NCBI GenBank assembly: GCA_024280755.1
Contig: JAJRPN010000028.1
Location: forward strand, 59,667 to 123,666
DNA length: 64,000 bases
Direction: 5' to 3'
Source of the DNA: Planctomycetota bacterium
Lineage (GTDB): Bacteria > Planctomycetota > Phycisphaerae > Phycisphaerales > UBA1924
Shown here: piece by piece, positions 26,074 to 28,477 of the stretch
Layout of the letters: every line of letters starts with the position of its first letter
Numbering within the stretch: position 1 is the stretch's first letter
The notes under the pieces: model-generated
What the model saw: the letters and a program-made list of their open reading frames with translations, nothing else
Told to the model about the DNA's origin: nothing
Databases searched by the model: none
Position numbers and translations under genes: made by a program

Positions 26074-26188
26074 ACTAGGTATAACTTTCGTCAAGATTCA
26101 ATACAGTCAGCGTAATGGATATTGCGTGCGCCTGTGATTTTGCATAGAATGACTCATATCGCCCTAAGCGACCATTGAGGAGTTCAAC

Positions 26189-27790
26189 ATGTCAGACCAA
26201 AATACAAACAACGCAATCGAATCCGTCCTTCAGGAAAACCGCGTCTTCAATCCGCCATCCGCAGCCGAGGTCGGTGCGAGCAAATGGTTGATCTCCTCAC
26301 TCGATCAGTATCACGAGATGTATAAGGAGTCGATCGATTCGCCCGAGACCTTCTGGGGGAATATCGCCAAGGATTTTCATTGGTTTAAAAAATGGGACAC
26401 CGTTCTTGAGTGGGACGCTCCCGATGCCAAATGGTTCAACGGCGGCACAACCAATGTCTGCTACAACTGCGTCGATCGACAGGTCGAACAGGGGTTCGGC
26501 GATGATGTTGCGATTATCTGGGAAGGCGAGCCGGTGGATGATTCTGGCGCACCAATCGATCAACGCACGCTGAGCTATAAGGATCTTCAAACCGAAGTTT
26601 CCAAGCTCGCCAATGTGCTCAAATCCAAAGGCATCACTAAGTGCGACATTGTGACTATTTATATGGGCATGGTGCCCGAGCTGGCCATCGCGATGCTTGC
26701 CTGTGCTCGTATCGGTGCGCCCCATTCCGTGATCTTTGGCGGGTTCAGCGCTCAAGCAATCGCCGACCGTGTGGGCGATGCCAAATCCAAGATGATCATC
26801 ACCTGCGACGGCTCATGGCGTCGCGGTAAGGTTGTGCCCCTCAAGAAAAATGTTGATGATGCGATCGTCATGCTGAAAGAATCAGGTGGTCAACCCGTCG
26901 AGCATGTGCTGTGCTTAGGTCGATGCCATAACGATATTGCATGGGGCGAACTCGATCGGTGCTGGAAAGAAGAGATGGAAAAAGCATCGCCCGACTGCCC
27001 ATGCGAAGAACTCGAAGCAGAGGACATGCTCTTCTTGCTCTACACCTCCGGCTCGACCGGAAAACCAAAGGGCATCGTCCACACCGTCGCCGGGTACATG
27101 ATCTTCACGGCAACAACCGCCAAGTATACTTTTAACCTCATTCCCGATACCAACCAAACCTTCTGGTGCACCGCAGATTGCGGGTGGATCACCGGGCACT
27201 CCTACATCGTCTATGGCATCCTCCCAAACCGCGTCCCGACATTGATGTTCGAGGGCGGCCCAGACTACCCAACCCCGGCCCGCTTCTGGCAGATCGTCGA
27301 TCGCCATCAGGTGACGCAGTTCTACACCGCACCGACCGCCATCCGTGCGTTTATGAAGTGGGGCGATGAGCATCCTGCATCGTGCGATCTCTCATCCATC
27401 CAAGTGCTCGGCACCGTCGGCGAGCCAATCAATCCGGAAGCATGGATGTGGTACCGCGAAAAGATCGGCCGCAATATTTGCCCGATTGTCGATACCTATT
27501 GGCAAACCGAGACCGGCGGACATGTCCTGACCCCGTTCCCCGGCGCGACTCCGACCAAGCCCGGCTCTTGCACGCTCCCGATGTTCGGGATCGACGCAGC
27601 CGTGTGTGATGAAGCGGGCAATGCCGCCAAAGAAAATGTCGGCGGGTTGATGACCATCCGCAAGCCTTGGCCCGGCATGCTCCGCGGCGTCTACGGCGAT
27701 CGCCAACGATTCATCGACACCTATTGGAGCACCGTCGCCAAAGACGGCGAGCCGTATTATGCCGCCGGCGACAATACAAGGCGCGACTAA
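26189..27790 (+). CDS. acs: acetyl-CoA synthetase, N-terminal (adenylation) domain, terminated by in-frame TAA at hinge
   Basis: LLYTSGSTGKPKGIVH, YWQTETGG, ends …YYAAGDNTRRD-stop. Confidence 0.93.
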   Translation: MSDQNTNNAIESVLQENRVFNPPSAAEVGASKWLISSLDQYHEMYKESIDSPETFWGNIAKDFHWFKKWDTVLEWDAPDAKWFNGGTTNVCYNCVDRQVEQGFGDDVAIIWEGEPVDDSGAPIDQRTLSYKDLQTEVSKLANVLKSKGITKCDIVTIYMGMVPELAIAMLACARIGAPHSVIFGGFSAQAIADRVGDAKSKMIITCDGSWRRGKVVPLKKNVDDAIVMLKESGGQPVEHVLCLGRCHNDIAWGELDRCWKEEMEKASPDCPCEELEAEDMLFLLYTSGSTGKPKGIVHTVAGYMIFTATTAKYTFNLIPDTNQTFWCTADCGWITGHSYIVYGILPNRVPTLMFEGGPDYPTPARFWQIVDRHQVTQFYTAPTAIRAFMKWGDEHPASCDLSSIQVLGTVGEPINPEAWMWYREKIGRNICPIVDTYWQTETGGHVLTPFPGATPTKPGSCTLPMFGIDAAVCDEAGNAAKENVGGLMTIRKPWPGMLRGVYGDRQRFIDTYWSTVAKDGEPYYAAGDNTRRD

Positions 27791-28213
27791 ATGGGCAACT
27801 TCTGGATCATGGGTCGAACCGATGATGTGATCAATGTCTCCGGGCATCGCCTGGGCACGATGGAAGTCGAGAGTGCATTGGTTTCGCACGAGAGCGTGGT
27901 CGAGGCTGCCGTCGTCGGCATGCCTCACGAAATCAAAGGCACCGGCATCGCCGCCTTCGTCACCCCCGCGCCCGGTTTCGAAGCAAGCGACGAACTCAAG
28001 GCCGCCCTCCGCGCCCATGTCGCCAAAGAAATCGGCGCCATCGCCAAGCCCGACATGATCCGGTTTACAGGCTCCCTCCCCAAAACCCGCTCCGGCAAGA
28101 TCATGCGAAGATTGCTCCGTTCAATTGCTGCGGGCGATACCAACATCACCCAAGATATGAGCACCCTCGAAGATTTGTCCGTCGTCGCGAAGCTGTCGGA
28201 GAGTGAAGAGTAA
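27791..28213 (+). CDS. acs: acetyl-CoA synthetase, C-terminal domain in same frame, starting with ATG immediately after TAA
   Basis: [30 protein letters not shown]…[16 protein letters not shown]; (27791-26189) is divisible by 3. Confidence 0.9.
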
Positions 28214-28331: not shown

Positions 28332-28477
28332 ATACTCTCCTCCCCCGGGCCTCCGGGGGAGGTGGCTGCGCAGCAGACGGAGGGGGTCTTCTGATGCTGA
28401 AACAAAGGGTAAAGCGAAGCAAGACCCCCTCCGCCTCACTTCGATCGGCACCTCCCCCGGAGGCCCGGGGGAGGAGA
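28332..28477. repeat. gene-less copy of the DUF559-associated inverted repeat pair (MITE-like)
   Basis: ACTCTCCTCCCCCGGGCCTCCGGGGGAGGTG…GGAGGGGGTCTT and inverted AAGACCCCCTCCGCCTCACTTCGATCGGCACCTCCCCCGGAGGCCCGGGGGAGGAG separated by ~30 bp. Confidence 0.9.

Follow-up and report, generated by a model that had tools for sequence, protein, structure and literature searches.

In this work we have analysed an acetyl-CoA synthetase gene, acs, whose reading frame is broken by an in-frame TAA directly followed by an ATG. It lies in a stretch of 64,000 nucleotides (the window) from a Planctomycetota genome of 3.02 Mb, which is assembled in 41 contigs and 94% complete. The break is most probably a single sporadic nonsense substitution, unique to this lineage, in an otherwise ordinary acs; such a substitution would have arisen very recently as a true mutation, or else be a wrong or minor-allele base in the assembly. 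An earlier note on this DNA had listed four options; of these, a recent nonsense mutation and an assembly error are now favoured, a two-polypeptide enzyme has lost ground and stop readthrough is left unsupported.

The frame at 26189-28213 of the forward strand is a true acs ortholog, since the surrounding gene order, pilM-N-O-P-gspE-acs-...-purE-purK, is conserved and no other acs occurs in this genome. The named relatives of the gene are Phycisphaerales MAGs, the closest being NVSM01000030 with 91% identity. All three Pfam domains of an AMP-forming acetyl-CoA synthetase score above their curated cut-offs (ACAS_N 85, AMP-binding 258 and AMP-binding_C 90 bits) and the catalytic Lys motif PKTRSGK is present in the C-terminal domain, with P631-K637 invariant; what the gene lacks is a single uninterrupted frame, owing to the TAA at codon 534. 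In a search of the host genome for a backup, neither a second acs copy nor an acetate kinase was found, and PF13607 gave one weak match (34 bits), which probably marks a succinyl-CoA ligase and not an ADP-forming acetyl-CoA synthetase. Translation bore out the earlier reading that the TAA and the ATG follow one another in frame with no indel and that the C-terminal frame stays open to 28213. The features of the split frame are as follows.

26177..26182, forward strand: acs Shine-Dalgarno sequence GAGGAG, strong (duplex energy -8.8 kcal/mol)
26189..27790, forward strand: N-terminal ORF, 533 aa plus TAA, with the ACAS_N and AMP-binding domains up to RRD
27778..27781, forward strand: AAGG, weakly Shine-Dalgarno-like, 9 nt 5' of the internal ATG, with a duplex energy at background for internal ATGs
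27788..27790, forward strand: in-frame TAA, codon 534, seen on translation; a sense codon in all genus relatives whose sequence extends over it
27791-27793, forward strand: internal ATG, adjoining the TAA (0 nt spacing)
27791..28213, forward strand: C-terminal ORF of 140 aa, counted from the ATG, with the NFWIMGR strand, the hinge, AMP-binding_C and the catalytic Lys of PKTRSGK
27812..27823, forward strand: codons G542-R543-T544-D545, where the A8 hinge is placed by PMC8383264 and by the alignment with S. enterica Acs

What has changed at the junction? Among genus relatives the codon aligned with the stop is mostly GAG or GAA (Glu), in a few AAG or GAC, and never a stop, while the next codon is ATG in three of them (G019, G008 and G004) and encodes Ile, Leu, His, Asn or Gln in others. 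It had been proposed that two variable codons became stop and start; only the stop codon has changed, the Met being a sense codon already present in relatives. Because the relatives carry Glu followed by Met or another sense codon, a single base change, GAA to TAA, suffices for the stop, and the apparent start is, to judge from these alignments, an ancestral ordinary Met codon. The coincidence of stop and start is modest and was picked out after the fact: the gene offers 224 one-step opportunities for a nonsense codon, 12 of which (about 5%) directly precede an ATG and nine of which (about 4%) fall within residues 520-556.

Nor does the break fall at the A8 hinge, as was first thought. When the frame is aligned with S. 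enterica Acs, the stop falls on E506, whereas the hinge there, G514-R515/D517 (D517 being the hinge residue), corresponds to G542-R543/D545 here, so that the stop lies 8-11 residues N-terminal of the hinge. It sits in a variable turn of the last beta-hairpin of the large domain. In fungal (Cryptococcus) Acs structures the domain boundary is likewise placed at Gly541 (PMC8383264), the equivalent of G542 here. An AlphaFold model of low confidence (mean pLDDT 62) lends weak support to a turn at residues 533-537, predicted between strands 521-532 and 538-543. The N-terminal ORF thus lacks both the large domain's final beta-strand (NFWIMGR) and the small C-terminal domain, and any C-terminal product would include that strand.

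The same TAA-ATG, sought in related genomes as the earlier note had suggested, was absent from all those compared. No internal acs stop was found in the 20 other genomes searched in the genus (21 with the host) or elsewhere in the family, where 143 of 145 genomes gave a match, and of the 80 named public loci none has a stop at codon 534 wherever that site can be read. An exact-match scan of viral_contigs for the TAA-ATG junction also returned nothing. A wider sample across the class comprised 198 genomes, of which 161 gave an acs match; among the matches listed, two others were flagged with a stop. One of these, a TAA in G305, was rejected as an interruption, the stop lying upstream of the start codon. 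The other, in the distant class member G279, is real and lies at a different place in the gene: its acs (L182, contig C49, about 1.26 kb) has one in-frame TGA near codon 66, which is either a sporadic interruption or a recoded TGA. As this is the only other case among the matches listed, and is elsewhere in the gene, sporadic interruption of acs in MAGs is well under 1% and the stop in the window is not shared by other genomes.

The two halves otherwise look intact, as noted before, with a single lesion and a constrained C-terminal half. Compared with G003, 135 of 138 residues of the C-terminal half are identical and its dN/dS is 0.055 (about 0.05), that of the N-terminal half being 0.071; both halves are therefore under purifying selection (dN/dS about 0.05-0.08), which is also expected for a very recent lesion. 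On the host's terminal branch the C-terminal half shows no acceleration (0.019 vs 0.049 for the N-terminal half), and a like bias is seen on the G003 branch (0.007 vs 0.025). Under neutrality the C-terminal half would have gathered roughly 70-120 nonsynonymous changes over the whole branch, an estimate from a dS to G003 of 0.33-0.58 and about 315 sites. Since neutral drift would give tens of changes, any loss of function occupies no more than a few percent of the branch. A loss of function, if there was one, must then be very recent; failing that, the two halves are still active or the base call is mistaken. Of the two observations that were to speak against the split gene, intact acs in close relatives was indeed made, with no stop in genus or family, while decay of the C-terminal ORF was not. 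Intact relatives together with a constrained C-terminal half fit a recent nonsense mutation, an assembly or minor-strain error or a functional split, and do not fit an old pseudogene.

That last reading, of a gene already some way into decay, draws on the internal stop at a place where all comparable relatives are intact, and it is nearly refuted: there is no second lesion, neither multiple lesions nor relaxed constraint is seen, and three amino-acid differences from G003 in 138 residues at that dS leave very little room for it. Still more improbable is readthrough of the TAA, whether programmed or driven by a suppressor, to give full-length Acs. The frame does continue without an indel into a conserved downstream part, but no ochre-suppressor tRNA (UUA anticodon) is among the 40 tRNAs found in this 94% complete genome. 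TAA is moreover a normal stop here and the commonest, with 105 TAA against 95 TGA and 29 TAG in a 463-kb sample (n=229), which makes general reassignment or strong suppression implausible.

Could the enzyme instead work as two chains? Termination at the TAA and restart at the ATG would yield an adenylation chain of 533 aa and a second chain of 140 aa, which together would form the active enzyme, a natural Acs divided by one base change in the beta-turn before the A8 hinge. We regard this as unlikely, although it is the foremost of the alternatives and several observations agree with it. The stop and start are 0 nt apart, and termination-reinitiation in bacteria is favoured by very short spacing (PMC10666635); both halves are constrained, the break is in a variable turn, and the genome has a single acs, no acetate kinase having been found. 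Split halves of firefly luciferase, also an ANL enzyme, can complement each other, but they are joined via fused interacting partners (PMC3626928). Against two chains it also counts that the split occurs in no relative, so that it is no established gene pair conserved in another lineage, and that the C-terminal half carries no signal of adaptation after a split. The AAGG 9 nt upstream of the ATG, pointed out in the earlier note, is where it was said to be, yet it does not stand out as a Shine-Dalgarno sequence: its duplex energy with the canonical anti-Shine-Dalgarno is -3.2 kcal/mol, a strength reached or surpassed at 29% of the 2455 internal ATGs in the host genome, and G017 carries the identical AAGGCGCGAC sequence with no stop. 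A long-established split Acs is unlikely; residual two-chain expression by termination-reinitiation is possible.

Is the stop then a mutation or an error of assembly? In 463 kb of the host genome we found 12 same-frame candidate pairs. No domain spans the stop in the six that were checked against Pfam, and the remaining pairs were rejected by eye as adjacent genes or antisense shadows. Since acs is the only convincingly split gene in the 463 kb examined, false stops are not a general feature of this assembly; one wrong or minor-allele base at this particular stop is possible. The sporadic nonsense substitution that we prefer would have come about by one base change, Glu GAA to TAA, in the variable beta-turn of the large domain, either very recently, as a mutation of the lineage or strain that was sampled, or as a wrong or minor-allele base in the assembly. 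Should the stop be genuine, ribosomes that terminate there could start again at some rate on the adjoining, pre-existing Met, and both halves may then be made and may partly complement each other. Some points do count against this explanation. The stop lies in a non-conserved loop near a domain boundary, directly 5' of an ATG, both halves look fully intact, and without its one acs the cell would be deprived of something useful, as no acetate kinase was found. That no second gene in the 463 kb is convincingly split belongs among these points too.

Two further observations concern other features of this genome. About 120 bp 3' of acs lies a nested palindrome of 142 nt (window 28336-28477) with outer arms of 29 nt, 100% complementary, and inner arms of 16 nt. 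It belongs to a dispersed, REP/MITE-like repeat family with 91 matches in the host genome, and is represented in 17 of the 21 genus genomes; a search of the 500 nt 3' of acs in six relatives turned up none. The valyl-tRNA synthetase gene (L183/L184, G000 contig C27, about 31.6-32.1 kb) has a Y1_Tnp domain (HUH/RAYT-like transposase) in frame within the part that encodes the catalytic region, flanked by SDQWYCKV and WCISRQLWWGHRIP. The domain is found at the same site in genomes of two other genera of the family (G096 and G127; L185, L186; 64-69% identity), and a search for it in the same-genus G019 gave no match. In-frame peptides of this synthetase such as RAATVRERS and PLPHGRGSF look like translated dispersed repeats. 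This case seems to merit a study of its own.

If the acs stop is ordinary, it is a caution that a stop-start junction in a MAG can arise by one substitution before a pre-existing Met. A two-chain enzyme, if proven, would mean that a gene for an ANL enzyme had undergone fission naturally and in a single step, and nature would have its own counterpart of split luciferase. The gene is homologous to S. enterica Acs (PDB 1pg3/1pg4/2p20) over its full length, residues 34-673, and the two have ACAS_N, AMP-binding, AMP-binding_C and the catalytic Lys motif in common; the gene in the window differs in being divided by one in-frame stop at the E506 equivalent. In split firefly luciferase the ANL fold is likewise divided near the boundary of the large and small domains, but that division was engineered and its complementation is driven by the fused binding partners (PMC3626928). 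With the gene pairs that use termination-reinitiation (PMC6728339, PMC10666635) the acs site shares a stop and a start close enough for coupling. Those pairs are usually separate, conserved genes with a 4- or 1-nt overlap, whereas the acs junction is seen in one genome only, and comparison with relatives makes its ATG an ancestral internal Met.
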